Source: a virus. From it: 24,947 nt of DNA. This document shows positions 440 through 20,209 of this stretch, piece by piece. The first letter of the stretch is position 1, and every line of letters starts with the position of its first letter. Below the pieces are notes generated by a model. The model saw only the letters and a program-made list of their open reading frames with translations, was not told the origin of the DNA and did no database searches. Where the stretch lies: positions 1 to 24,947 of IMG/VR virus record IMGVR_UViG_3300026097_000097; one strand, written 5' to 3'. The translations under genes and the position numbers were made by a program.

Positions 440-520
440 ATGGATTTTTACAACACACAATACACAAACAAGAGATTACTTAATCACAAATTATTACAAT
501 TGGTAACATATGGACACTGA
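440..520 (+). CDS. Possible 26-residue leader peptide overlapping terL
   Basis: ATG at 440 opens 26 codons ending at TGA 518-520, inside the first codons of terL in another frame. An AAGG-containing sequence at 426-431 sits about 8 bases before this ATG and could be its ribosome binding site, whereas terL itself has no visible Shine-Dalgarno. The AAGGTT is the 3' arm of a 6-bp hairpin (AACCTT at 415-420, loop AAAGT). This could be a translational-coupling leader, or chance. No homology is recognised. Confidence 0.25.
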   Translation: MDFYNTQYTNKRLLNHKLLQLVTYGH

Positions 521-2084
521 ATTAGATATTGAAAGCCTTGAGGCATTAGCCTTACCTCCCGTTGCTGTGCCTAAAGCTTATGCAGACTTTGATAAAGCAC
601 TAAGTGATTACATACATGTTAAGTCAAAGACAGACCTGATAACCTTTGTACGTAAGACAGCACCTACACTAGTAACAGACTTCCACATGGGTAGACATAT
701 TGAACTACTATGTGACAGACTACAGAAGGTAGCAGACGGTGAGATTAAAAGACTTATGGTCTTCCTGCCACCACGTAGTTCTAAGAGTCTTATTACCAGT
801 AAGATATTCCCTGCATGGTATATAGGCAGAGAACCTAACCACGAGATTATGTCTGTCTCACACAGTGACCAGCTGGCTAGTGACTTTGGTCGTAGCGTAA
901 GGGACATTGTAAATACAGAGGACTTCCAGAAAACCTTCAAGGGTGTACAGCTACGTAGTGACGTTAAGGCAGCTGGTAAGTGGAAGACTAATCACAATGG
1001 CTCATACTATGCTGCTGGTGTCAGGTCACAGATTGCTGGTCGTGGTGCTCACTTAGCCCTGCTGGATGATGTGATGTCTGAAGAGGATTCTTTCTCTGAG
1101 GCAGGACGTAGGTATATTAAAGACTGGTGGCCTTCTGGTCTACGTACACGTCTTATGCCTAATGGTGCCATTATTATTATTAATACAAGGTATCACTATG
1201 ATGACCTATGTGGTTGGTTATTGAAGCAGGAGTCAGACATCTCTGGTATACCATGGGAAGTTATTAGTATCCCTGCCTGGCTAGATGAGACAGCAGCAGA
1301 GCTACTGGGCTTGCCAGTGGGTAGTAGCTACTTCCCTGAGTGGAAGCCTGACCATGTACTACAGCTAGATGAGCAAGAGATTAGGTCAAGTAATGGCAGC
1401 AGGTACTGGGATGCTCTGTATATGCAGAACCCATCACCAGATGAAGGTGGTATTATTAAGAAGAAGTGGTTCCAGTGGTGGGAGTATGAGGACCCACCCT
1501 ACTGTGAGTTTATTATTCAGACGTATGACACGGCGTTTTCCACCAAGAAAACGGCTGACTATAGTGTCATACAAACATGGGGTATCTTTAATCAAAGTCA
1601 AAGAGATGAGTTTGGTAATGAGTTTACTGTCCCCAATCTAATACTATTAGGTAATGTAAAGGAAAGGTTTGAGTATCCAGACCTAAGACGTGCAGCACAG
1701 CACCTATACCAGAAGCATAGACCAGATGTCTGTATCATTGAGAAGAAGGCATCAGGTCAGTCATTGTTACAAGACATGAGGCTGGCAGGCTTGCCTGTAC
1801 TAGACTATCTGCCTGACAGGGATAAGGTATCACGTGTCTATGCAGCCACACCACTAATGGAGTCTGGTCGTGTCTACCTACCCAAGGGTAAGGAGTGGGC
1901 TAAGGATTTATACGATGAATCATTGGCATTTCCCAATGGAGCACACGATGACCAAGTGGACGCAATGACCATGGCCATCCATTATATGAGAGATAGTTGG
2001 CATGTCTCCCACAGTGAAGACCCTAGCTGGGAAGACGATTATAACCCAAGACGACAGAAGAGGGTTGGATACTGGCGCACTTGA
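510..2084 (+). CDS. terL: Terminase large subunit
   Basis: Packaging ATPase-nuclease that pumps DNA into the prohead through the portal and cuts concatemers. The N-terminal ATPase domain has a Walker A-type motif, LPPRSSKS, at residues 86-93, and a Walker B strand LALLDD at 182-187. A strand ending in NTR at 225-227 fits the coupling motif position. The C-terminal RNase H-like nuclease shows the expected acidic residues: D340 in QTYDTA, E411 in IIEKKASG, and the HDDQVDA cluster (D480, D481, D484). The length of 524 aa is normal for the family and no catalytic element is missing. The ATG at 510 has no clear Shine-Dalgarno, but the next in-frame ATG (residue 60) would cut into the ATPase domain. 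The adjacent portal gene supports the assignment. Confidence 0.96.
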   Translation: MDTELDIESLEALALPPVAVPKAYADFDKALSDYIHVKSKTDLITFVRKTAPTLVTDFHMGRHIELLCDRLQKVADGEIKRLMVFLPPRSSKSLITSKIFPAWYIGREPNHEIMSVSHSDQLASDFGRSVRDIVNTEDFQKTFKGVQLRSDVKAAGKWKTNHNGSYYAAGVRSQIAGRGAHLALLDDVMSEEDSFSEAGRRYIKDWWPSGLRTRLMPNGAIIIINTRYHYDDLCGWLLKQESDISGIPWEVISIPAWLDETAAELLGLPVGSSYFPEWKPDHVLQLDEQEIRSSNGSRYWDALYMQNPSPDEGGIIKKKWFQWWEYEDPPYCEFIIQTYDTAFSTKKTADYSVIQTWGIFNQSQRDEFGNEFTVPNLILLGNVKERFEYPDLRRAAQHLYQKHRPDVCIIEKKASGQSLLQDMRLAGLPVLDYLPDRDKVSRVYAATPLMESGRVYLPKGKEWAKDLYDESLAFPNGAHDDQVDAMTMAIHYMRDSWHVSHSEDPSWEDDYNPRRQKRVGYWRT

Positions 2085-2126: not shown

Positions 2127-4658
2127 ATGGCAACTGAACGCAATCCATACGAAGTAGATGGTGGAAGAGAATACACTAATATGGAATTAGAGCTTGAGGA
2201 TGTATCGTCTGCTGATGCAGCGATTACAGTAGACCCTGAGACTGGAGAGATTGAAGTAGACTTCTCTGGCGTAGCAGATGAAATAGAGATTGAGATTGGA
2301 ATGGATTCAGAAGGGTTCTATCAGAACCTTGTAGAAATCCTAGATGAAGATACTTTAGATGACATAGGTAATATGGTCGTTGATAAGTTTGAAGCTGATA
2401 AAGATTCACGTGCTGAATGGGAGTCAATGTTTGAACGTGGTTTTGACCTACTAGGTCTGAAGCTGGAAGACACAAGCGAACCATTTGAGGGTGCCGCCAC
2501 TGCAGTGCACCCACTACTAATTGAATCAGCAGTTAAGTTCCAAGCTAAAGCATCTACAGAACTGTTCCCATCTAAAGGACCAGTCAAGGCACAGGTACTA
2601 GGGGAAGCAACACTAGAGAAACAACAACAAGCTAATCGTGTTCAGAACTTTATGAACTATCAGGTAACAACACAGATGCCTGAATACTTCGATGAGTTTG
2701 AGCGCATGTTGTTCCACCTACCACTTATCGGTTCAGCAATAAAGAAAGTATACTATGATGCAAGTCTTGAGCGTCCTGTATCTGAGTTTGTTCCTATTGA
2801 CCAGTTCTATGTATCTTACTATGCAACTGACCTACGTAGAGCAGACCGCTATACACATGTAATCTATCGTAGCCCTGTAGACTTGGCTCGTCAGATTGAT
2901 GCAGGTATGTATGCTGATGTTGATTTACCTAAAGCAGGTATGCCTTCTTTGTCTGGCATGGCAGAGAAGATGGACAATGTTCTTGGTTTGTCTCCTGCCT
3001 CAGACAATGACCCACAATATGTATTGCTTGAGCAGCATTGTTATTTAGAGATACCAGAAGATGTACGGCACAAAGGTAATGTTGCCTGTCCATACATTGT
3101 AACTGTAGAACAAACATCAGGCAAAGTATTATCTATTAGACGTAACTGGGCAGAAGACGATGATAAATATGTTAAGAAAATGCACTTCACACATTACCGA
3201 TATGTTCCTGGCTTTGGTTTCTATGGTCTTGGTCTCATTCACTTTCTTGGTAATCTTACTATGTCTGCTACTGCTGCTATGCGTTCATTGCTTGACGCTG
3301 GTCAGTTCGCTAACCTTCCAGGTGGTTTCAAAGCTAAAGGTGTACGTATGGTGGGTGACAATGACCCTATTGCTCCTGGTGAGTTTAAGGAGGTAGAAGC
3401 AACAGGTATGGACTTATCTAAGTCTATTATCCCACTACCATTTAAAGAACCATCGCAGACACTGTTTAATATGCTTACCTTTGTAACACAAACAGGACAA
3501 AGATTTGCTGACAGCACTGAGCAAGTGATTGCAGACAGTGGTGGCTATGGTCCTGTAGGTACAACGATGGCATTGTTAGAAGCTTCAAGCAAGTTCTTCT
3601 CTTCAATCCATAAGCGTTTACATAAAGCACAGGGTGATGAGTTTAAAATTCTAGCACGTATTGATTCTGAATACTTGCCAGATGAATATCCATATGACCT
3701 ACCAGGCTTATCAGAAAAGATTCTACGTTTAGACTTTGATGGACGTATAGATATTATTCCAGTATCTGACCCGAACATTCCATCTAATGCACAGCGTATG
3801 ATGCTTATCCAAATGGTACAGCAGATTGCTGCTCAGTCAGAGCCTGGCATGTTTGATATGGAAGCTATTAATCGTATGCTTCTTACAACTGCTAATGTTC
3901 CTGATGTTGAGAAGCTAATGCCTCTTAAGAAGGACGCTGTGGCTCAAGACCCAATGTCTGATATCAGGTCAGCAGCACAAGGCAAACCAATCAAAGCATT
4001 TACTGGTCAGAACCATGATGCACATATTGCAGTTAAGACTGCCTTCTTGCAAGACCCAACCAATGCAAAGAATCCTACAATGCCTCGTATTGCTGCTGCA
4101 CTACAGGCTAATATTTCTGAGCATGTTATTATTAAGTACGAAGAACAACTTGGTGGTCTTATGCAACAAGCAACACAACAGATTGCTGCTAACCCAGAGA
4201 TGGCTATGCAAGTACAACAACAGCTTGCCTCAGCTCCTGAACCAGAAGCAATGGTACAGGCACAAGCTGCACAGCAACTACTACAGATGCACCAGCAGAT
4301 TATGCAGGGTGGTCCTATGTCTCCTGAACAACAGATGGTTCAGATGGAAGGACAACGCATTCAGGTTGAAGCACAGAAAAATCAAACACAAGCTGCCAAG
4401 GCGCAGGTTGATGCAGCACTTAAAAACCGTGCACTTGATTTGAAAGAGCAAGAGATTATGATGGATGCTCAAGAGGCAGGCATGGATAAACAATTAACCA
4501 TAATGCAGAAAGAAGAAGACCGTAGTAACAAACGTGCTATCGAAGCAATGAAACTATTGGGTGACCTTCTTAAAGCACAAGATGCAAATGAAATTGAAGA
4601 ATCTAAAATAGCTGGCAACTTGTTAATGGATATAATTAAAACAGGTGGTATTAATTAG
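2127..4658 (+). CDS. Portal protein (P22-like, long C-terminal helical tail)
   Basis: Forms the dodecameric ring at the capsid vertex through which DNA enters and leaves. At 843 aa it is long, comparable with or larger than the P22 portal (about 725 aa). The N-terminal 110 residues are acidic. Next comes a core with segments typical of this portal group, such as HPLLIESAVKFQAKASTELF near residue 128 and a conserved D-x-F-Y-V strand near residue 230. From about residue 690 the protein is rich in Gln, Met and Ala with coiled-coil character, as expected for a helical barrel projecting into the capsid. The Shine-Dalgarno AAGGAAA lies at 2114-2120. It follows terL and shares its last base with the next gene. 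Confidence 0.93.
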   Translation: MATERNPYEVDGGREYTNMELELEDVSSADAAITVDPETGEIEVDFSGVADEIEIEIGMDSEGFYQNLVEILDEDTLDDIGNMVVDKFEADKDSRAEWESMFERGFDLLGLKLEDTSEPFEGAATAVHPLLIESAVKFQAKASTELFPSKGPVKAQVLGEATLEKQQQANRVQNFMNYQVTTQMPEYFDEFERMLFHLPLIGSAIKKVYYDASLERPVSEFVPIDQFYVSYYATDLRRADRYTHVIYRSPVDLARQIDAGMYADVDLPKAGMPSLSGMAEKMDNVLGLSPASDNDPQYVLLEQHCYLEIPEDVRHKGNVACPYIVTVEQTSGKVLSIRRNWAEDDDKYVKKMHFTHYRYVPGFGFYGLGLIHFLGNLTMSATAAMRSLLDAGQFANLPGGFKAKGVRMVGDNDPIAPGEFKEVEATGMDLSKSIIPLPFKEPSQTLFNMLTFVTQTGQRFADSTEQVIADSGGYGPVGTTMALLEASSKFFSSIHKRLHKAQGDEFKILARIDSEYLPDEYPYDLPGLSEKILRLDFDGRIDIIPVSDPNIPSNAQRMMLIQMVQQIAAQSEPGMFDMEAINRMLLTTANVPDVEKLMPLKKDAVAQDPMSDIRSAAQGKPIKAFTGQNHDAHIAVKTAFLQDPTNAKNPTMPRIAAALQANISEHVIIKYEEQLGGLMQQATQQIAANPEMAMQVQQQLASAPEPEAMVQAQAAQQLLQMHQQIMQGGPMSPEQQMVQMEGQRIQVEAQKNQTQAAKAQVDAALKNRALDLKEQEIMMDAQEAGMDKQLTIMQKEEDRSNKRAIEAMKLLGDLLKAQDANEIEESKIAGNLLMDIIKTGGIN

Positions 4659-4844: not shown

Positions 4845-5252
4845 ATGCGAGCAGGCAGCAATGCACTTAAAAACGATGAGTGGATTACAGATGAAAATGT
4901 TGAAGACCCAAAAGTATTACCAGAAATTCCAGGATATCACTTACTTGTACGTCCTGTCTCTGTTAAGCAGACAACAAAGGGCGGTATTATTCTTCCTGAC
5001 TCAACCAAATCGGACATGGCTTATCTTACAACAGTGGGTCGTGTAGTTAAGGTTGGTAACCTAGCATACAAGGATGACAAGTTTGATGGCAAACCTTGGT
5101 GTAAGGAGGGAGACTATGTTTGCTATGGTAAACATACAGGCGATAAGTTTTTGTATAAAGGTATCCAGTTCCTACTTATCTTTGACGATGCTGTTAAAAT
5201 GGTAGTGGAAAGTGCTAAGGACTTAGACCCTACATTTAACTTATCAAATTAA
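4845..5252 (+). CDS. GroES-like co-chaperonin
   Basis: Cap of the chaperonin folding chamber, comparable in role with phage T4 gp31. The 135-aa protein has an extension of about 28 residues and then the Cpn10 fold: YHLLVRPVSV (31-40), a mobile loop with GGIILPD at 46-52, VGRVVKVG (64-71), and the GDYVCYGKHTG strand (89-99) matching the GroES GDIVLFGKYAG-type segment. The GGI-I-L tripeptide that contacts GroEL is retained, so it could work with host GroEL; no GroEL gene is visible. AGAGGA at 4831-4836 is the likely ribosome binding site. It sits just ahead of scaffold and capsid genes, which suggests capsid folding as its task. The N-terminal extension and the Cys residues C86 and C93 are unusual compared with host GroES. 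Confidence 0.92.
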   Translation: MRAGSNALKNDEWITDENVEDPKVLPEIPGYHLLVRPVSVKQTTKGGIILPDSTKSDMAYLTTVGRVVKVGNLAYKDDKFDGKPWCKEGDYVCYGKHTGDKFLYKGIQFLLIFDDAVKMVVESAKDLDPTFNLSN

Positions 5253-5354: not shown

Positions 5355-6371
5355 ATGTCAGAGACTGAATGGTCTACTATTACACCTAATGAAGGTGAAT
5401 CCCAAGAAAAAATTGAATTTGAAATCGAAGGACAGGAAGAAGAAGCACAAGCAGAAACTCCAGAGGTCCAAGAAAAAGTAGAGGTAGAATCCGATACTAC
5501 AGAAGAGGCTCAAAGTGAAGAGCAAGAAGTTCCAGAAGAAAAAGGTGTTGAAACCTCTGGTGCTCAAAAAAGAATTAGACAGCTAGTTGCTCAAAAGAAA
5601 GAGCGTGAAGCTGAGATTGAAAAACTACTAGAGCAGAACAAGCAATATCAACTTGAACTACAACAGCAAAAAGAAGAATACTTTGCAGCAGTAGGAAGTA
5701 ACTTAGAAAACTCTGAGTTACAAGTTAAAGAGAAACTATCAATTGCACGTGATGCCTACAAAAGAGCTATTGAAAGTGGTGAGGCAGACCTTATCCTACA
5801 AGCTCAAGAGTATTTAAATAATGCACAGTTAGATGTTACTCGTCTAGCAGATGCAAAGAAACAATATCAAGCTCTTACTCCTGCGCAGAAGAATGCAATT
5901 GCAGAAGAGCAAATACAGGCTCAACCTCAAGCCCCTGCTGAAAACTACAATGGATATGGACTTAAAGCATATCAGTGGGCAGCAAGCAACGAGTGGTTTA
6001 ATACCGACCCTATCCTTACAAATGCAGCATTAGTTATTGATGCGCAACTTAAGGAAGAAGGTTACGACCCAGAGGAAGACGAGTTTTATGCGGAAGTAGA
6101 TAAGCGTCTTGCTGATAACTTCCCTAACAAGTTTGGTGCACCTGCAAAGGCTGTTGCCGAAACCCCCGTAACGAAGCCTACGTCATCGGCTTCTCAGGTA
6201 GTAGCTGGAGCCTCGCACACTTCAGCAGCCCCGTCAAGTAAAAAGGTTAAGCTCTCACAAGAAGATGTACGCCTTGCAAACAAATGGGGTATTACGCTTG
6301 AACAGTATGCCGCCGAAAAGTTGAAGGTCGAATCGGCTGGAGACGGTGAATATACAACAATTAATCGATAG
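5355..6371 (+). CDS. Capsid scaffolding / assembly protein
   Basis: Probable internal scaffold that organises capsid protein into a prohead and then leaves. The call rests on position and architecture rather than catalytic residues. Residues 1-65 are extremely acidic (many Glu). About 70-115 form a strong coiled coil (REAEIEKLLEQNKQYQLELQ). The C-terminus carries a short helical segment, LSQEDVRLANKWGITLEQYA (about 300-319), of the kind scaffolds use to bind the coat protein. The start at 5355 is set by AGGAGA at 5342-5347. It is 338 aa, near the size of T7-type scaffolds (about 300 aa), and lies two genes before the decoration and capsid genes. No protease domain is seen. Confidence 0.82.
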   Translation: MSETEWSTITPNEGESQEKIEFEIEGQEEEAQAETPEVQEKVEVESDTTEEAQSEEQEVPEEKGVETSGAQKRIRQLVAQKKEREAEIEKLLEQNKQYQLELQQQKEEYFAAVGSNLENSELQVKEKLSIARDAYKRAIESGEADLILQAQEYLNNAQLDVTRLADAKKQYQALTPAQKNAIAEEQIQAQPQAPAENYNGYGLKAYQWAASNEWFNTDPILTNAALVIDAQLKEEGYDPEEDEFYAEVDKRLADNFPNKFGAPAKAVAETPVTKPTSSASQVVAGASHTSAAPSSKKVKLSQEDVRLANKWGITLEQYAAEKLKVESAGDGEYTTINR

Positions 6372-7552: not shown

Positions 7553-8485
7553 ATGGCTATTAATAGAGCAAGTATTTCAAAAGAGCTACTCCCTGGCCTC
7601 AACGCCGTATTCGGTCTTGAGTATGGGGAAGTCTCTGACGAACATGCACCGTTGTTTGAAATTGAAAATTCAGACCGTGCATTTGAAGAAGAAGTTCTCT
7701 TCACAGGCTTCGGCACTGCACCTGTTAAAGGTGAAGGTGCTGCAGTATCATATGATGACGCACAAGAAAGCTACACAGCTCGTTACACACACGAGACTGT
7801 CGCCCTTGGCTTCGCTATTACTGAAGAAGCAATGGAAGACAACTTGTATGACACATTCGCTAAACTACGTGCCAAAGGTCTGGCCCGTGCAATGGCGAAC
7901 ACCAAACAAGTTAAAGCTGCCGATGTATTTAACAACGGCTTTAACACTTCATATGTAGGTGGCGATGGTAAACCATTGTTCTCTGCATCACACGCTACGA
8001 TTGGCGATGGCAACCAAAGCAACCTGCTTTCTGCCGCTGACCTTTCAGAAGCATCTTTGGAAACTGCATTGATTTCAATTTCGAAAATCAAAGATGACCG
8101 TGGTATCTTGGTTGGAGCGCAAGCTGAAAGCTTACACATCCCATCAGACCTCGCATTCACTGCAGACCAAATCTTGAACTCAGCGTTGTCAACGACTGTA
8201 GTTACGAACAGCACGACTGGCGTAACGAATGTCAACGACATCAACAGCATCCGTAACCAAGGTCTAGTCCCTGGTGGTTTCTATGTGAACCGCCGCTTTA
8301 CCGATACGAATGCTTTCTTCATCAAGACTGATTGCCCGAACGGAACAAAAATGTTTGTACGTTCACCGCTTCAGACTAAGATGGAGCCTGACTTCGACAC
8401 AGGTAACCTTCGCTTTAAGGCCCGTGAGCGTTATGCTTTCGGTTGGTCTGACTGGCGTGGGTTCTTTGGTAACGCTGGTGCATAA
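7553..8485 (+). CDS. Major capsid protein (HK97-fold)
   Basis: The shell protein. At 310 aa it fits a compact HK97-fold coat without an added protease. The N-terminus MAINRASISKELLPGLNAVF resembles the N-arm of Mu gpT-like coats. Around residues 137-147 is GDGKPLFSASH, typical of coat proteins in that group, and the C-terminus YAFGWSDWRGFFG (294-306) resembles the P-domain end in which coats of this class finish. GGGAGA just before the start is the ribosome binding site. The gene has a much higher GC content and more C-ending codons than its neighbours, fitting strong expression, and it is followed by the only strong terminator in the window. Confidence 0.93.
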   Translation: MAINRASISKELLPGLNAVFGLEYGEVSDEHAPLFEIENSDRAFEEEVLFTGFGTAPVKGEGAAVSYDDAQESYTARYTHETVALGFAITEEAMEDNLYDTFAKLRAKGLARAMANTKQVKAADVFNNGFNTSYVGGDGKPLFSASHATIGDGNQSNLLSAADLSEASLETALISISKIKDDRGILVGAQAESLHIPSDLAFTADQILNSALSTTVVTNSTTGVTNVNDINSIRNQGLVPGGFYVNRRFTDTNAFFIKTDCPNGTKMFVRSPLQTKMEPDFDTGNLRFKARERYAFGWSDWRGFFGNAGA

Positions 8486-8590: not shown

Positions 8591-8908
8591 ATGTCGGCAA
8601 ATCTTAGAGTAGCATATGTTACTGCCACTACTACGTTAGTTAACACAGCTGTAGATACAGTAAGCGGTGTAACCGTAACAGATACACGGATTCGGGGCGT
8701 ACATGCTCAGGGTGTAGGAGAGTTTATTATTACTGGTACTTCACTAGACCCATTTGGTAACACAACAGGTGGCATCATTAAGTTTACTAATACATCTAAT
8801 TCAGATATTACAGAAGCCTATCTTACAGATAACGGTGTTCGTATGGCTGGGCCTGTAGTTGTCCAGTGTCCTACCACCGCATCAACGGTAACAATCTATT
8901 ATGGCTAA
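8591..8908 (+). CDS. Small beta-rich virion protein, unknown role
   Basis: A 105-aa protein dominated by Thr, Val and Gly with alternating hydrophobic strands (TLVNTAVDTVSGVTVTDTRI) and an aromatic end, STVTIYYG. It is almost certainly an all-beta domain of the kind found in phage head fibers, decoration or neck proteins. AGGAG lies 8 bases before the ATG. Its last 8 bases overlap the next gene, so the two are translationally coupled; this and its place between capsid and adaptor suggest a structural part of head or neck. I do not recognise a specific family. Confidence 0.75.
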   Translation: MSANLRVAYVTATTTLVNTAVDTVSGVTVTDTRIRGVHAQGVGEFIITGTSLDPFGNTTGGIIKFTNTSNSDITEAYLTDNGVRMAGPVVVQCPTTASTVTIYYG

Positions 8909-9554
8909 TTACACATACCTAGTCAATGATATTATAGAAGCAACTGAGAACGAAGGTTCTGAGTTTATCTCTTATATTCCTAAAATGGTTAATCGTGTTG
9001 AGGAACGACTAACTAAGGCATTGGATGATTATGGTCTGGTAACTGCAACATCTATTACACTTACGTCAGGTACCAATACATATACTCTTCCAACAGGAAC
9101 ACGTATTATTAAGAATATTAATATTGAAGAAGCAGGTAGCAAAATAAATCTACTTCAAAGAACAGATGAATTTATTAATGACTACTGGCCAGTAAGCGCA
9201 GAGACAGGAACACCTAAGTATTATGCAAGGCAAACAAATAGCAACATTATCTTTGCTCCTACTGCAAGTGCTACTTATAGTGGCAAACTTGTCTATGTCG
9301 TTAAGCCAGCAGCTTTAACAAGTGCTAATCAAAATAACTATTATAGTGATTATTGCTACGATGCTTTGTTTTATGGTTGCATGATTGAAGCAACTAACTT
9401 TATGAAGAACTATACTGTTACTCAAGTATATGAACAGCAGTATCAAAATGCAGTTGAAGGACTTCGCAATCAATCAAGACGTACACGCCGTGATGACATG
9501 GAAGCTAATGCTTCTCCTGCAGGTGGTGACAATACAATTGGAGGAGGAAACTAA
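8901..9554 (+). CDS. Putative head-tail adaptor / neck protein
   Basis: A 217-aa protein with the layout of head-tail adaptors: an N-terminal helix, NDIIEATENEGSEFISYIPK (9-28), then MVNRVEERLTKALDDYGL, a beta domain (about 47-125), and a C-terminal pair of helices (CYDALFYGCMIEATNFMKNY, near 151-170). The tail is polar and Gly-rich. The plan resembles the gp4-like protein at 13472 although the two are not close in sequence. In short-tailed phages such proteins sit between portal and tail hub. The specific counterpart (P22 gp4, T7 gp11 or another) cannot be fixed from sequence alone. It overlaps the previous gene by 8 bases and the next by one (TAATG). Confidence 0.68.
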   Translation: MANYTYLVNDIIEATENEGSEFISYIPKMVNRVEERLTKALDDYGLVTATSITLTSGTNTYTLPTGTRIIKNINIEEAGSKINLLQRTDEFINDYWPVSAETGTPKYYARQTNSNIIFAPTASATYSGKLVYVVKPAALTSANQNNYYSDYCYDALFYGCMIEATNFMKNYTVTQVYEQQYQNAVEGLRNQSRRTRRDDMEANASPAGGDNTIGGGN

Positions 9555-10270
9555 TGAGTAGTGCTCTTATTAAAGCTTTACTTAAGCAAGGTAAAAAAGG
9601 AGCAGCTGAAAAAGATTTCGGTAAGCGTGCAGTTGCTCAGGTTATTCGCCGTGATAAAGCTAAAGCAGAAAAAGAAATGGCTAAAAGAGTTGCCGATAAA
9701 GCTGGTGCAATGCCTAGCATTAAGAAAGAAAAGATGTCTAAGCAACAAAAAGCTACTGCTGCTTTTAAACGTGCTGAAGCCAAAGCAAAGAAACTTAAAG
9801 ATACTCCTCCTAAGAAACCAGTACAGGTACAGAAAGTTAAAAGCAAAGAAGCACAAGCAATGCTTGATGACGAAATGCGCCGTGAACTTAGAGGTGAAAC
9901 TGTTAAGGCAAGACGTGAGCGTCTTAAGAAGGCTACTGATAAAAAGAAACAACGTAAAGCTCGTAAGTTAACTGAAGGTCGTGAGTCTAGTGAAGAGTTT
10001 GAAGCACGTATGTCTCGTGAAGCTCGTCAAGGCGGTGGTCAGGATGTGGGTCGCCGTAAAGCTAATCGTGGTTCAGCCTCTGACCCTCTATATGAATATG
10101 AGGCAGGTCAGGCATCTTCTTTCTTACGTGGTAAAGATAAACCATTCTTAGATGAATATGAAAAAGATTTGGTTGATATAGTGTCAAGAAAGAAAGGCGG
10201 TAAAGTTTCTCCTCGTGGTTGCGGCAAAGCTTTACGTGGTTATGGTAAAGCTATGAAAGGTGGTAAGTAA
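9554..10270 (+). CDS. Basic protein with C-terminal RGYGKAMKGGK tag (1 of 3)
   Basis: A 238-aa, Lys/Arg-rich protein with long charged helices (KRAEAKAKKLKDTPPKKPVQ; RRELRGETVKARRERLKKAT) and no hydrophobic core resembling an enzyme. The C-terminus reads KKGGK, then RGCGKALRGYGKAMKGGK. Closely related endings occur on the next two gene products, so this is a modular tag. The strong positive charge suggests DNA or RNA binding inside the virion or scaffold-like behaviour, but that is inference. It begins within the stop of the adaptor gene (TAATG at 9552-9556). No named family is recognised. Confidence 0.8.
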   Translation: MSSALIKALLKQGKKGAAEKDFGKRAVAQVIRRDKAKAEKEMAKRVADKAGAMPSIKKEKMSKQQKATAAFKRAEAKAKKLKDTPPKKPVQVQKVKSKEAQAMLDDEMRRELRGETVKARRERLKKATDKKKQRKARKLTEGRESSEEFEARMSREARQGGGQDVGRRKANRGSASDPLYEYEAGQASSFLRGKDKPFLDEYEKDLVDIVSRKKGGKVSPRGCGKALRGYGKAMKGGK

Positions 10271-10271
10271 A

Positions 10272-11225
10272 ATGTCCATGAGAAAAAAACTTTTAGAAGG
10301 TATAATTAAACCTAAAGGAACTAGAGCAGCTAAAGAAATAGAAGCTTCTAAAAAAAATCGTGAAACAATTAGTAGGCTTGCTAATCAAAAACGCATAGCT
10401 AAATCTGGTCAGTCTGCTGTTTTACCAGCAGCAAAAGCTTCTGTAAAAAAAGCAGTTAAAGGTTCTAACAAAGAAACAGGAAGCAAAAGAATTGTAGGTA
10501 CAAATCAAATAGGTAAAAAACCTGTTAAAGAAATGACTAAGCTTGAGAAACAAGATTATGATTTTGAAGGTTTTAATAAAGGATTAAAACGTTCTCTTAT
10601 AGATAAGGCTAGAAAAGGTGAATCAGCAGTATATCAAGGAACAGACTATAGCTTCATGCTTTCTGAATTACGTGGTATTAAACCCAGAGGAGAAAAGAAA
10701 GCTTTAAAAGAACGTCAAAAAGCAAATGTAGAAGAAGTAAAAAAGCGTCAGGCAGGAACAGTTAATAAAAGAGAAGGTGGTAAAATTAATACATCTAAGA
10801 GGTATAGAATGAAACCACGTAATAAAGAAACAATGTCTCCTACGGACGCAATGAGAGCTAAATTAAAAGGCAGAGTTTCTACAGGTACTTCTAAGTCGTC
10901 TCCTGCGGCACCTTCTTTAACAACTCCTAAAGAAACGTCACCTAAAAAAACATTTACTAAGAAAAAAGAATTTATGTATGGAGATAAACTACCAGAAACA
11001 AAACCTAAACAAACATTTGGTCAGGCTTTTGCAGCTGCTCGTAAAGCTGGTAAAAAAGAATTTATGTATAATGGTAAACCATATCATACACGTACAAAAG
11101 AAGAAGAAGCTAAAAGAAAAAAATCAGGAACAGTTAATAAAAGAGCAGGTGGTAAAGTAAGTAAACCTAAAGGTTGCGGTGCTGCAACACGTGGTTATGG
11201 TAAAGCAATGAAAGGAAACAAATAA
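10272..11225 (+). CDS. Basic repeat-containing protein with C-terminal RGYGKAMK tag (2 of 3)
   Basis: ATG 10272 is preferred (317 aa) because AAAGGTGG lies about 8 bases upstream; a GTG at 10260 would overlap the previous gene. The protein is highly basic and low in complexity. GTVNKR-x-GGK occurs twice, encoded by 32-base repeats at 10753-10784 and 11125-11156 with one mismatch. KKEFMY occurs twice, encoded by an exact 18-base repeat at 10962-10979 and 11052-11069. Residues 249-262 read FGQAFAAARKAGKK, followed by a FMYNGKPYHTRTKEEE segment, a short module I recall from other phage structural proteins. The end is KGCGAATRGYGKAMKGNK. The function is unknown; it is probably a virion or DNA-associated protein. 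Confidence 0.78.
   Translation: MSMRKKLLEGIIKPKGTRAAKEIEASKKNRETISRLANQKRIAKSGQSAVLPAAKASVKKAVKGSNKETGSKRIVGTNQIGKKPVKEMTKLEKQDYDFEGFNKGLKRSLIDKARKGESAVYQGTDYSFMLSELRGIKPRGEKKALKERQKANVEEVKKRQAGTVNKREGGKINTSKRYRMKPRNKETMSPTDAMRAKLKGRVSTGTSKSSPAAPSLTTPKETSPKKTFTKKKEFMYGDKLPETKPKQTFGQAFAAARKAGKKEFMYNGKPYHTRTKEEEAKRKKSGTVNKRAGGKVSKPKGCGAATRGYGKAMKGNK
10753..11156 (+). repeat. 32-base direct repeat encoding GTVNKRxGGK
   Basis: Copies at 10753-10784 and 11125-11156 differ at one base. Each encodes the KGG-type segment; in the second copy it runs straight into the RGYGKAMK tag, while the first is internal. It looks like a duplicated tag-proximal module. Confidence 0.8.
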
Positions 11226-11226
11226 A

Positions 11227-11550
11227 ATGGTATTACCTCTATTATTAGGCGGAGCAGGTGCAACAGCAGCTGGAAAACTCTATGAAGCTTTTGAAAAAAA
11301 GAAAGACAAGAAAAAGAAAAAGGCTTACGAAGCTGGTAAAGCTGCTGGTATGGCTGCAGGCATGGAACAAGCAGGCATGGAAAATGTAGGCGGTGGAGCA
11401 GGCATGTCAGTTAATCGTAAAAAGGGCGGTAAGCTTGGTGGCGGTTCTTCATGTAAGAAAAGTATGAAGATGAAAAAAGGCGGAAAGATGGGTTCAAAAC
11501 CTCGTGGCGTTGGCTGTGCACAACGTGGTTACGGGAAAGCAATGAAGTAA
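11227..11550 (+). CDS. Small protein with hydrophobic N-terminus and RGYGKAMK tag (3 of 3)
   Basis: A 107-aa protein. The first 20 residues (MVLPLLLGGAGATAAGKLYE) are hydrophobic and could insert in a membrane or act as a packing helix. Then come a Lys cluster (EKKKDKKKKKAY), an Ala/Gly/Met-rich helix (AGKAAGMAAGMEQAGMENVG), two KKGGK motifs, and an ending RGVGCAQRGYGKAMK that lacks the final GGK. It follows the previous gene by one base. The tag shared with the two upstream products suggests common targeting or assembly. The family is not recognised. Confidence 0.75.
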   Translation: MVLPLLLGGAGATAAGKLYEAFEKKKDKKKKKAYEAGKAAGMAAGMEQAGMENVGGGAGMSVNRKKGGKLGGGSSCKKSMKMKKGGKMGSKPRGVGCAQRGYGKAMK

Positions 11551-11844: not shown

Positions 11845-11981
11845 TGCCACTTTCTAAAGGTAAAAGTCAGAAATCTATTAGCAAGAATATTAAGATGCTA
11901 AAGAAAGAAGGCCGCCCACAGAAGCAGGCTGTTGCTATTGCTTTGTCTACTGCTAAGAAGAGTAAGAAGAAAAAGAAATGA
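11844..11981 (+). CDS. 45-aa protein with KGKSQKxISKN / [10 protein letters not shown] motif
   Basis: The sequence runs [35 protein letters not shown], and a poly-Lys tail. The pattern K-G-x-S-x-K-x-I-S-K-N-I and G[11 protein letters not shown] is a short module I have seen repeatedly in phages, either as a free peptide or joined to larger structural proteins. Its role is not known to me; the basic amphipathic character fits nucleic acid or capsid-interior binding. It starts in TAATG with the previous gene and ends in ATGA with the next, so it is translationally coupled on both sides. Confidence 0.75.
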
Positions 11982-12379
11982 CTACTTACACTAAACCTTC
12001 TCTACGTAAGTCTGTTGTTGCTCGTGTCAAAGCAGGAACAAAGGGCGGTGCAGCTGGTCAGTGGTCAGCACGTAAGGCTCAGTTAGCAGCACAGGCTTAT
12101 GAGAAAGCAGGCGGTGGTTACAAGGGTGGTAAAGGAAAGAAGCAGAAATCTTTAAGTAAATGGACAAAAGAAGAATGGGGAACCAAAAGTGGTAAGCCAA
12201 GTACGCAGGGCAAGAAGGCAACTGGCGAAAGGTACCTACCAAAGAAGGCAAGGGCCGCACTCTCAAAAGCAGAGTATGCGAAGACTTCGGCAGCAAAAAG
12301 AAAAGGAACTGCACAAGGAAAACAGTTTGTTAAGCAACCTAAAGCTATAGCAAAGAAAACAAGTAAGTATAGGAAATAA
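11978..12379 (+). CDS. Basic protein resembling DUF5872 (virus-associated)
   Basis: A 133-aa protein. Its conserved blocks are [20 protein letters not shown] (4-23), [39 protein letters not shown], a [19 protein letters not shown] block, and [20 protein letters not shown] near the C-terminus. From memory this pattern matches a domain of unknown function (DUF5872 is my best guess) found in phages and in giant eukaryotic viruses. The W-S-A-R-K and E-R-Y-L-P-K-K-A-R blocks are the strongest signs. It is very basic, with no enzyme signature. It starts in an ATGA overlap and belongs to the basic-protein island. The exact family name should be treated as tentative. Confidence 0.8.
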
Positions 12380-12381
12380 TA

Positions 12382-12657
12382 ATGGCAGTAGATTATAGAG
12401 GTGAAAAGTTTTCAGGTTACAACAAACCAAAGCGTACACCTGGACATAAAACTAAAAGTCACGCAGTCTTAGCCAAAGAGGGAGAGAAGGTTAAGCTGGT
12501 AAGGTTTGGTCAACAAGGTGTCAAGGGTGCTGGGAAAAACCCTAAGACAGCTAAGGACAAAGCACGTAAGAAATCTTACTACGCTCGACACGATGCACAA
12601 GGTAAGCCTACTACAAAACTAAGTCCAAAGTACTGGAGTCATAAAGTTAAGTGGTAA
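12382..12657 (+). CDS. Small basic protein of a viral unknown family (DUF6321-like?)
   Basis: A 91-aa protein. The pattern FSGYNKPKRTPGHKTKSHAV (10-29), LAKEGEKVKLVRFGQQGVKG (31-50), then GKNPKT, ARKKSYYARH and LSPKYWSHKVKW is one I recall from a viral domain of unknown function, possibly DUF6321. Like the preceding gene, relatives occur in both phages and large eukaryotic viruses as far as I remember. The conserved RFGQQG core and the aromatic YW near the end suggest a small folded domain rather than pure disorder. It begins two bases after the previous stop. Confidence 0.78.
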   Translation: MAVDYRGEKFSGYNKPKRTPGHKTKSHAVLAKEGEKVKLVRFGQQGVKGAGKNPKTAKDKARKKSYYARHDAQGKPTTKLSPKYWSHKVKW

Positions 12658-12684: not shown

Positions 12685-13152
12685 ATGGAGCCAATAACTG
12701 CAGTGCTAACAGGTATAGCACTTGTTAAGCAATCTGTAGAGTTTATTAAATCTAATATCGAAACCGTCAAAGATATTGGAGAAATTGTAGGGGCTATTGA
12801 TGGATTATTAGACGGTGAGACGCAGGTACAACAAGAAAGATTTGGAAATAAAAGCATTATTAGCTCGCATAAATCAGCAGCATCTGATATAATAGATGCG
12901 AAGCTGGCGCAAGAAGCACTAAGTGAAATGCGGTCGCTAATAAATTTCAGGTTCGGACCAGATACATGGAAGACTATTGTAGACGAAAGAGCCAGAAGAT
13001 TACAGGAACATAAGGAGCTAGTAGCTAAAGAACGAAAGATTAAACTACAAAAGAAAAAAGAACTTCAGAAGGTAATGACTTATGTAGGTTTGGGAGTAGG
13101 TTTTCTTTTATTAATAGCAGCTTCAATATTTGGATATATAGAATTAGCATAA
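12685..13152 (+). CDS. Membrane-anchored phage protein, unknown function
   Basis: A 155-aa protein with an N-terminal helix (PITAVLTGIALVKQSVEFIK), a central region with GEIVGAIDGLLDGE, and a charged helix (about 98-129, ERARRLQEHKELVAKERKIK). A single clear transmembrane segment spans about residues 131-152 near the C-terminus. The tail-anchored design would allow membrane insertion late in infection or during DNA entry; lysis accessory and ejection roles are both possible and neither is shown. It is the only clearly membrane-anchored product in this otherwise basic island. Its ribosome binding site lies in a hairpin. The stop overlaps the next start by one base. Confidence 0.7.
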   Translation: MEPITAVLTGIALVKQSVEFIKSNIETVKDIGEIVGAIDGLLDGETQVQQERFGNKSIISSHKSAASDIIDAKLAQEALSEMRSLINFRFGPDTWKTIVDERARRLQEHKELVAKERKIKLQKKKELQKVMTYVGLGVGFLLLIAASIFGYIELA

Positions 13153-13319
13153 TGATAAATAGGTCTAGTGTCAGTCAGCAAGTTAGTAAACCTGGAAGAA
13201 AGGTAGGTGGTCCGAAGAAGAAGCGTTCAACCAGCCCTAAGAGTCCAAGAGGTTCTAAGGGACATATTAGAACTAGCTTGTCGGCTGGCCCTAGGCAAAA
13301 AGCAGCGAGACGACCATGA
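13152..13319 (+). CDS. 55-aa Arg/Lys/Ser-rich protein
   Basis: Read from ATG 13152 (TAATG with the previous gene) to TGA 13317-13319. The composition is protamine-like: KPGRKVGGPKKKRSTSPKSP, RGSKGHIRTS, and QKAARRP at the end, with almost no hydrophobic residues apart from the first few. It is probably disordered and nucleic-acid binding. It overlaps the following ORF in ATGA. No family is recognised. Confidence 0.6.
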   Translation: MINRSSVSQQVSKPGRKVGGPKKKRSTSPKSPRGSKGHIRTSLSAGPRQKAARRP

Positions 13320-13471: not shown

Positions 13472-14137
13472 ATGGCAACATCAGGTACATATAGCTTTAG
13501 CATGGACATAGATGAAGTAATCGAAGAAGCTATGGAGATGATTGGTGGAGAAGCTACACTTGGTAATGAACCAAAGTCTGCTCGCCGTTCTATTAACTTA
13601 CTTCTACAAGACTGGCAGAACCGTGGTATTCAGCTATGGACTGTGGGTACAACTACTGTTACTGTAACTACAAGTGTTACATCTTATACTCTTGGTAATG
13701 AGAATGTAGATGTACTAGAAGCAGTAGTAAGTCGTAATGGTATTGACCTACAACTTGAGCGTATTAGCATGGAGGAGTATCTCAAAGTTCCACGTAAAGG
13801 GCAGACAGGTCGTCCTACTCAGTTTGCTGTACGCCGTGAGCGTGATGCGTCTAAAGTATTTCTATGGCCTGTACCAGAAAATAGTACAGATAAAATTAAG
13901 TTTGAAACATTTAAATACTTTGAAGATGTAACAAGGTCTTCACAGACTGCAGATATATCTCGTAGGTTCTATCCTTGCTTAACTGCAGGTACAGCTTACT
14001 TCATGTCAATGAAACGTCCTGGCGTAGACCCTGGGCGTATTACTATGATTAAACAAGAGTATGAAGAAAGACTTATGAGGGCACAGGAGGAAGACAAGGA
14101 ACGTGCAAGTATGTTTATACTTCCTCGTTTAAGGTAA
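13472..14137 (+). CDS. P22 gp4-like tail accessory factor / head-tail adaptor
   Basis: Head completion protein that binds below the portal ring and stabilises packaged DNA. The 221-aa sequence has the recognisable P22 gp4-type N-terminal helices: IDEVIEEAMEMIGGE (13-27), and EPKSARRSINLLLQDWQNRG (33-52) leading into IQLWTVG. A beta domain follows, then YPCLTAGTAYFMSMKRPG (about 167-184) and a charged C-terminal helix. Family members are typically 160-220 aa, so the length fits. Together with the gp10-like hub at 21662 it is the main evidence for a P22-like short tail. The ATG directly follows the previous stop. Confidence 0.87.
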   Translation: MATSGTYSFSMDIDEVIEEAMEMIGGEATLGNEPKSARRSINLLLQDWQNRGIQLWTVGTTTVTVTTSVTSYTLGNENVDVLEAVVSRNGIDLQLERISMEEYLKVPRKGQTGRPTQFAVRRERDASKVFLWPVPENSTDKIKFETFKYFEDVTRSSQTADISRRFYPCLTAGTAYFMSMKRPGVDPGRITMIKQEYEERLMRAQEEDKERASMFILPRLR

Positions 14138-18862: not shown

Positions 18863-19539
18863 TGACTGTTGAATCTACTATTACTTTTGAAACTCCAGAA
18901 AATACTGATAATATTATTTTAGTAGCTGCTGCTTTTAATATTCAAAAGGGACAGTTTATGAGTAGGGATGATGCTCGTGATATCCCGCATAATAAAACAA
19001 AGATAATAAATCATCCTACTATTTCTGGATTAATTAAGACGGGTGAAAATCATCTTATGACTAAAGGTCGCATACGTATGATTTTTACACTAGATAAAGA
19101 TATAACGACAGAACAGATTCAAAATTATATTACATATATTGAATCAGATTTAATTAATGGTAAGGCTATTTATGTAGAAGCAGCTAATGAACTACATGTT
19201 TTTTATACAGCAATATATGCTCAGGAAACATTTAGAGAGTTTAGTGTTAAGTATGCACCATTGTCTACTAAAGCTAAAATGATTTTCCATGAGGGAAGTG
19301 ATTTACTTTGCTGTCTTAGAATAGATGGTGAGCCTGAGGCTTGGACTACAGAGTATAGAGATATTACTAATACGGCTACGATAGATAAGAAGGGTAACTT
19401 ATGTTATGTTGTGTTTAGTACTGATGTTTCTTCTGGTAATAAATCTTTATCTCGTGGTAAAGCATATAAGTTAACCTCAGATACTATTGATATTACTGTA
19501 TCTGAAAATACTAAAGTTGTGAGAATGTATCGTGATTAA
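18862..19539 (+). CDS. Unknown 225-aa protein (cassette gene 2)
   Basis: Starts in TAATG with cassette gene 1. The sequence is a mixed alpha/beta protein with strands (NIILVAAAFNI, AIYVEAANELHVFYTAIYA), a helix (TTEQIQNYITYIESDLI), and a C-terminal part with KGNLCYVVFSTDVSSGNKSL and RGKAYKLTSDTIDI. No catalytic motif or transmembrane segment is visible and I do not recognise the family. It is AT-rich and tied by overlap to the Coq4-like gene. A fiber-associated or host-interaction function is only a guess. Confidence 0.7.
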   Translation: MTVESTITFETPENTDNIILVAAAFNIQKGQFMSRDDARDIPHNKTKIINHPTISGLIKTGENHLMTKGRIRMIFTLDKDITTEQIQNYITYIESDLINGKAIYVEAANELHVFYTAIYAQETFREFSVKYAPLSTKAKMIFHEGSDLLCCLRIDGEPEAWTTEYRDITNTATIDKKGNLCYVVFSTDVSSGNKSLSRGKAYKLTSDTIDITVSENTKVVRMYRD

Positions 19540-20209
19540 TTTTATTAAAGCAGTTTATCATTGCAATAAACTAAGAACAGATAAACCAGAAGATAAACCT
19601 AAGAGAGTTTCTAAAATAATAAATCTATTTGGAACAAAGAGATACTTAAAGAAACGTGCTAAGTTTTTTTCTAATCCAGAAAATACAGAGTTATTATATC
19701 GTAAAAAAACTTTATACACATTGCTTAAAGATTATAAACAATTTCGTAAGTATAAAGAAGGAACTTTAGGAAAAGAACTTTATAATTTTTTAAGTTCTGA
19801 AGAAGTTGATTATGCTAAAGCAATAGCAGACTTTGCAGGTTTTAATGATGAATATGGCAAACGTGAGAAAAGCATGCACGATATTATACATGTTGTCTTT
19901 GGTTATAGTCGCTCTCGTTTTGGAGAAGGAGCCACATTAATTACAGATTATTGGCAGGGTAATTCTTTTGGATTTGCTTTTATTACTTTACTAGCCCTTG
20001 CTAGACAGAGCATATTACAGCCTTCAGCTGCCCCTATAATCTTTACTGCGCTTAAAGATATATATATAAGACAACAAGGTATAGGCTTACATTTATACCC
20101 TTTTGAAGATAATTTAAAGAAAGATATAAATCAGGTACGAAAAGAACTAAGGATACCTAATAAAGGAAAAGCTACGCATCTTCTTGATAAGTATTCTTCA
20201 TGGGGATGA
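19532..20209 (+). CDS. Coq4-like (ubiquinone biosynthesis family) protein
   Basis: A 225-aa protein with the hallmarks of the Coq4 family: EGTLGKELYNFL (76-87), the metal-binding motif H-D-x-x-H-x11-E (H116, D117, H120, E132) in MHDIIHVVFGYSRSRFGEGA (115-134), and a C-terminal IYIRQQGIGLHLYPFEDN (178-194) followed by DINQVRKELRIP. In cells Coq4 acts in coenzyme Q formation, where eukaryotic COQ4 is linked to processing of the ring C1 position, and it binds membranes and isoprenoid lipid. Whether this protein does that is unknown. The first 60 residues are basic and not obviously part of the family. It starts with GTG 19532, overlapping the previous stop by 8 bases; the first internal Met is residue 115, inside the motif. 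The gene is very AT-rich. Confidence 0.8.
   Translation: MINFIKAVYHCNKLRTDKPEDKPKRVSKIINLFGTKRYLKKRAKFFSNPENTELLYRKKTLYTLLKDYKQFRKYKEGTLGKELYNFLSSEEVDYAKAIADFAGFNDEYGKREKSMHDIIHVVFGYSRSRFGEGATLITDYWQGNSFGFAFITLLALARQSILQPSAAPIIFTALKDIYIRQQGIGLHLYPFEDNLKKDINQVRKELRIPNKGKATHLLDKYSSWG

Follow-up and report, generated by a model that had tools for sequence, protein, structure and literature searches.

The tagged genes and their setting

The window, by which we mean the whole stretch of DNA that was analysed, is one linear virus record of 24,947 bases (IMGVR_UViG_3300026097_000097), and it encodes in the 5' to 3' direction a large terminase, a portal-sized protein, GroES, a probable scaffold, two small head genes and the major capsid protein (Table 1). 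After the capsid gene come a gene at 8591-8908, an SU10-type adaptor, three tagged genes that we call A, B and C, two conserved basic genes and a second adaptor-like gene; two SU10-adaptor-like genes are thus present within one phage. The probable scaffold matches phrog_28737, a family of unknown function, and the capsid gene has a Phage_capsid_4 match, from which we infer an HK97-type fold for the capsid protein. The nearest cultured relatives of this protein, at 52-57% identity, belong to Phage DSL-LC04, 023Pt_psg01, the Roseobacter phages CRP-901/902 and the Pelagibacter phages HTVC023P/HTVC027P. The SU10-type adaptor and the HTVC023P-like relatives point to a short-tailed phage. A Coq4-like protein, unexpected for a phage, is encoded at 19532-20209 (PF05019, 1.4e-8).

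Table 1. Positions of the landmark genes, tagged proteins, linkers and tags in the window.
Feature	Position	Strand	Basis
Large terminase	510-2084		
Portal protein	2127-4658	+	size, place after terminase, homologues in collected loci
GroES	4845-5252		
Probable scaffolding protein, N-terminal half acidic	5355-6371	+	precedes capsid gene, sequence
Major capsid protein	7553-8485	+	PF25209 1.3e-14; phrog_371
SU10-type head-tail adaptor, left border of tagged slot	8901-9554	+	PF24175 1.9e-24; conserved order
Tagged protein A, 238 aa, net charge +36	9554-10270	+	17 body homologues (cluster c1)
Linker KKGGKVS ahead of tag A	10190-10210	+	sequence
Tag A, C-terminal: PRGCGKALRGYGKAMKGGK	10211-10267	+	degenerate-pattern scan, tail alignment
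Tagged protein B	10260-11225	+	body cluster c3
Linker KRAGGKVSK ahead of tag B	11139-11165	+	sequence
Tag B, C-terminal: PKGCGAATRGYGKAMKGNK	11166-11222	+	degenerate-pattern scan, tail alignment
Tagged protein C, 107 aa, basic	11227-11550	+	body without cluster partner
Linker KKGGKMGSK ahead of tag C	11473-11499	+	sequence
Tag C, C-terminal: PRGVGCAQRGYGKAMK	11500-11547	+	degenerate-pattern scan, tail alignment
Conserved basic protein, right border of slot	11978-12379	+	phrog_14910 6.9e-31
Conserved basic gene	12382-12657		
Second adaptor-like gene	13472-14137		

A sequence-only reading of this DNA had proposed that three consecutive basic proteins, unlike in their bodies, end in a common RGYGKAMK tag, and our comparisons bear out both parts of the proposal. 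Three in-frame copies of RGYGKAMK, at 10235-10258, 11190-11213 and 11524-11547, lie on the plus strand, each within a shared ending RG[CV]GxAxRGYGKAMK, and the degenerate pattern has no further match in the window and none in the backward reading. Pairwise alignment of the 30-residue tails gives scores of 108, 81 and 83, against means of about 28-30 for shuffled tails (SD about 5.5; best shuffles 51, 61 and 51). The alignment scores of the bodies lie within the shuffle range, being equalled by 46, 38 and 154 of 500 shuffles for the three pairs, and profile-profile comparison of the tag-trimmed families A-B, B-C and A-C returns probabilities of only 0.1-0.3%. Alignment and profile comparison therefore show unrelated bodies and not a recent paralogy of whole proteins. 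The K-x-GGK lead-in ascribed to all three proteins does not survive in its strict form, and what precedes the tags is a loosely shared stretch. The eight RGYGKAMK codons differ among the three copies at 1, 4 and 3 positions with identical amino acids. In a structure model most of protein A is helical and its tail is disordered, the tag having a pLDDT of about 38, which matches what is expected of a short linear motif.

The start of protein B is more likely the ATG at 10272 than the GTG at 10260. This protein carries a FGQAFAAARKAGKKEFMYNGKPY motif that, within the collected loci, is confined to tagged proteins. It also holds an internal linker-like stretch, GTVNKREGGKI (10754-10800), with no tag after it, possibly a relic of an earlier protein end.

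Distribution of the tag in environmental phages

A scan of IMG/VR with a degenerate GYGKAMK DNA pattern, unconstrained in position, recovered at least 119 loci, a set chosen by the tag from which no frequencies can be read and in which position, bodies and neighbourhood are unselected. Among the matches listed, 131 of 138 in-frame copies end no more than six residues from the stop, the commonest distances being 0 and 3, and internal copies are essentially absent. In these loci the tag profile finds at least 176 tagged ORFs with at least 144 distinct bodies, which form at least 42 clusters by BLASTP at 1e-4, a threshold that may split distant homologues. A sister form, RGxGAAxRGxKFxG[VI]F, occurs at least 115 times by a second IMG/VR pattern (RGxGAAxRGxKF), ends exactly four residues after KF in 114 of the 115 matches listed, and is carried by at least 94 bodies in at least 15 clusters. 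One body ending in GTKFKGVF (L255:4932-5324) matches bodies with GYGKA endings in L102 and L082 at 37-39% over 106 residues, and certain bodies are thus related across both tag forms. The general motif can be written as R-G-x-G-x-A-x-R-G-[Y/F]-G-K-A-M-K or R-G-x-G-A-A-x-R-G-x-K-F-x-G-x-x, usually with a flexible K/G-rich linker ahead of it.

At the invariant Gly, Ala, Arg and Lys residues of the tag every or nearly every synonymous codon is used, which indicates selection on the protein. We rejected an element acting at the level of DNA or RNA, since the tag codons vary freely and no Rfam or tRNA match was found anywhere in the window. Tags within one genome are more alike than tags of different genomes (1.70 versus 1.00 of 3 positions; 0 of 2,000 permutations), a similarity that may come in part from gene conversion or common descent. 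A cysteine is often seen at position 3 (RGCGxA) or position 5 (RGVGCA) of the tag, and never at both in the per-locus tag table.

The tagged genes lie between the adaptor and the counterparts of the two conserved basic genes that follow gene C in the window, or between terminase and portal; genes with the sister tag are mostly found in the interval from portal to GroES or in that from terminase to portal. The tag profile has one to three matches in 9 of 17 whole records, and long records carry from 0 to 3 tags each, nearly all within these head-module slots. Loci fetched by capsid similarity alone have the strict tag in 11 of the 29 with a bounded slot, and many further loci of this kind have slot variants such as RGMGVALRGGGKVMK or RGCGAAMRGGGAVMRKGRM, or other endings. 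Related uncultured phages often have the tag, its carriers belonging to a large marine group that is uncultured and probably short-tailed. In the IMG/VR loci bodies differ while the tag and the head-module neighbourhood stay, a comparison that the sequence-only reading had asked for. An off-slot exception is a LysM protein with the weaker variant AGAALRGMGKVII (L214:3175-4263), which adjoins an M15-peptidase-like gene and fits a role in lysis equally well.

Several other endings are seen in and around the slot. Proteins of about 335-490 aa that lie beside tagged ones (L025:6231-7700, L035:430-1605, L105:9947-11236 and others) end in ARQVKGFGAARRPKK, which is possibly related to the tag, and a small slot family has RPTGQGFGAARKGPxVxG followed by an acidic tail (L159:5358-5555, L161:11082-11300, L192:10839-11018 and others). 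The ending SGHNRLY, CSHNRLY or PNRLY closes 56 basic ORFs from 40 loci (e.g. L019:8126-8575 and L019:8938-9102); orthologues of the window genes at 11978-12379, where it reads SGHNRLY, and 13152-13319 carry it in the nearest relatives, and neither window copy does. A third ending, GGxITYRMTGGQVVDxSYD or LVASLYD, occupies the same slot and is also carried by LysM proteins (examples are L161:10001-10756, L169, L174, L179, L190:3793-5457 and L033:3303-4052).

The RGYGKAMK form matched none of 50,697 cultured-phage records, in which tblastn of the tag peptides gave only weak chance-level matches, the short queries being insensitive enough to miss the variants of HTVC023P. A whole-record profile search of that phage shows two RGxxF variants, RGVGAAIRGHKFIGVK at the end of gp32 and RGGGAAVRGMGFKGVF at the end of gp51, the latter encoded near an M15 peptidase gene. 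The same search finds no variant in HTVC027P, CRP-901 or 023Pt_psg01, and these phages, like the further cultured relatives by capsid that were examined, lack the tag. The tag pattern occurs in three stretches (L133, L134, L135) of the 84,980 species genomes of bacteria and archaea searched. Homologues of the window phage's portal or capsid genes are present on the L134 and L135 contigs and none on that of L133, and we rejected a host-derived or prophage tag because two of the three stretches lie on such phage-like contigs. The queried tag peptides were not found printed in the literature searched.

Exchange of bodies beneath a constant tag

Bodies have been exchanged between near-identical phages while the tag and the neighbouring genes stayed in place. 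Loci L019 and L055 share 97.2% identity along 3,461 bases that run to 5 bases inside the first tagged gene. Identity is lost there and returns at L019:7823, with 65 bases of the last tagged gene still to come, and is 93.8% for 2,931 bases. In between, L019 has bodies of clusters c1 and c4 and L055 a single, unrelated c3 body, and the last 18 codons of the two tags show 7 synonymous differences and none that alters an amino acid. The same pattern is seen for L019 against L020 (c4 versus c3) and against L090 (c4 versus c8). In relatives that match the window's capsid protein at 93% identity, protein A is kept at 52-67% or missing, and protein B often aligns over its last 8-9% only, which is the tag. 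A tag on swappable bodies is thus well supported.

All 144 tagged bodies are basic, the lowest net charge being +0.086 per residue, and with the last 40 aa removed the mean is +0.13 per residue for RG-tagged ORFs versus +0.016 for other ORFs. For the majority neither Pfam nor PHROG gives a match. The recurrent recognisable domain is LysM, found in 17 of 237 distinct tagged ORFs versus 1 of 2,522 untagged ones, an enrichment whose P value overstates independence because homologues were counted separately. A Pfam scan of tagged proteins confirmed the domain in 13. Some LysM proteins are encoded in the slot by the gene that immediately follows the adaptor (L137, L138 and L148), and the PHROG matches of the LysM proteins are to endolysins; no catalytic domain was found in them, and those matches rest on LysM. 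Among 64 tagged or variant-tagged members there was no Pfam or PHROG ejection family, and the tag profile matches no solved chain in the PDB. A fold search with the largest tagged family, c0, returned nothing at E <= 0.001 from a weak model (mean pLDDT 66, pTM 0.32). In the N-terminal region of this family (L016, L110, L025) AT-hook-like RGRP stretches stand among lysines. Membrane insertion was rejected, since a segment of 19 residues with strong hydrophobicity occurs in just 1 of the 144 tagged proteins.

Possible roles of the tag

We suggest, with a probability of roughly one half, that the motif serves as a docking tag at the C-terminus, through which accessory proteins that can replace one another are loaded within or on the virion. 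This reading is favoured by a constant label on changing payload next to head genes, together with the precedents of T4 and the encapsulins considered below, and the constant position in the head module fits virion loading. What speaks against it is that many relatives selected by their capsid are without the strict tag, and that the L214 LysM protein suits lysis just as well. A common phage component (scaffold, portal, adaptor or capsid interior), itself conserved while the bodies change, would bind the tag, and binding would carry the owner into or onto the assembling virion. At infection the tagged proteins would exit the virion together with the DNA, to act in the cell or at its envelope; LysM bodies may bind peptidoglycan there, and the remaining basic ones may bind DNA or targets in the host. 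In other words, the cassette would be a changeable payload under a fixed address label. As receptor for the basic tag one might guess at the acidic scaffold, and the portal is another candidate. The sequence-only reading had likewise seen a conserved tag on diverse bodies, which is strongly supported, and had suggested a sorting signal, which with docking is the best reading. The recognition site for a protease that it also offered is disfavoured, since the motif stands at the extreme C-terminus and ends at, or a few residues before, the stop; recognition by a host factor is conceivable.

We considered how else such a tag might be explained. Every tagged protein is basic, the tag is rich in Arg, Gly and Lys, and family c0 has its AT-hook-like stretches, as might be expected if the tag were a nucleic-acid-binding tail with which small basic proteins cover or compact the packaged DNA, independently of any receptor protein. 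Charge alone, however, would fix neither the spacing of Gly, Ala and Tyr nor the distance to the stop, internal copies are essentially absent, and the tag is also carried by LysM bodies, which to our knowledge are not DNA binders; we regard this explanation as unlikely. It also seems improbable that the tag works in the infected cell, directing proteins late to the envelope or to a host partner for lysis or takeover. The dominant slot lies within the head module, after the adaptor and before the head-tail genes, or around the portal, and although LysM is frequent among the tagged bodies, with endolysin matches, and M15 peptidase genes lie near L214 and HTVC023P gp51, the endolysin matches come from LysM without a catalytic domain.

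Two further explanations appear far less probable. In three phage pairs DNA identity returns at the tag of the last tagged gene or shortly ahead of it, as would be seen if the tag were mainly a recombination anchor, where shared gene-end DNA permits cassette exchange and the peptide has little function. The tag DNA, however, differs only synonymously (7 versus 0) with all codons in use, which argues that the peptide is kept and not the DNA, and each of two to four adjacent genes has a tag, so that we think this very improbable. Least credible of all is that A, B and C are recent whole-gene duplicates with fast-diverged bodies: they are adjacent, basic and similarly lysine-rich, but profile comparison shows no relation, and their body families have orthologues of their own elsewhere and move independently.

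The SGHNRLY and VVDxSYD endings suggest that there is more than one such code. It is conceivable, if rather doubtful, that interchangeable C-terminal codes (RGxGxAxRG..., ...SGHNRLY and ...GGxVVDxSYD), each with its own virion site, let a hypervariable payload, made up of basic and of peptidoglycan-binding proteins, re-assort freely between phages; if so, they would form a modular cargo-addressing system that is absent from the literature searched. Small basic proteins of unknown function abound in environmental phage genomes, and with a common terminal tag possible virion cargo can be picked out as a class in many of them from sequence alone, so that one can ask what proteins phages deliver at entry and what receives them. 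If the tag were sufficient for loading, it would also be a compact means of placing chosen proteins in laboratory phage capsids.

The docking-tag reading can be set against known systems. The internal proteins of phage T4 have variable, poorly conserved basic bodies and a common N-terminal targeting peptide, the capsid targeting sequence (CTS), and are loaded into the prohead (PMC9026906). As in IPI, IPII, IPIII and Alt with the CTS, one short peptide is common here to basic, sequence-diverse proteins. In contrast, the CTS is N-terminal, about 10 residues long and cleaved by gp21, and the tag is C-terminal and unrelated in sequence; the N-termini differ between tagged families, with no T4-style N-terminal peptide. 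The T4 proteins are packed in the head and ejected, as the tagged proteins may be. Among short-tailed phages, the ejection proteins of P22 and T7 and the N4 virion RNA polymerase, whose C-terminal domain has an encapsidation role cited as unpublished in PMC4496689, are placed in the head and released with the DNA. The tagged genes lie in the head-tail module of a phage that is probably short-tailed. These, however, are large conserved proteins or domains, in contrast to a short tag on many swappable bodies, and no sequence relation of the tagged proteins to P22 gp7/16/20, T7 gp14-16 or the N4 virion RNA polymerase was found. The HTVC023P-like pelagiphages, with a capsid protein 52% identical to the window's in HTVC023P, are without the RGYGKAMK form. 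Encapsulin cargo loading peptides are short, usually C-terminal, borne by unrelated cargo near an HK97-fold shell gene, and sufficient for loading (PMC7355545). The phage tag resembles them as a short terminal peptide conserved over unrelated proteins near a shell gene of probable HK97 fold, although encapsulins are cellular compartments with a different peptide sequence and the shell here is a phage head to which binding is putative. The tag may be seen as a relative in kind of virion and compartment cargo tags, unrelated to them in sequence and perhaps serving, like them, to load cargo.
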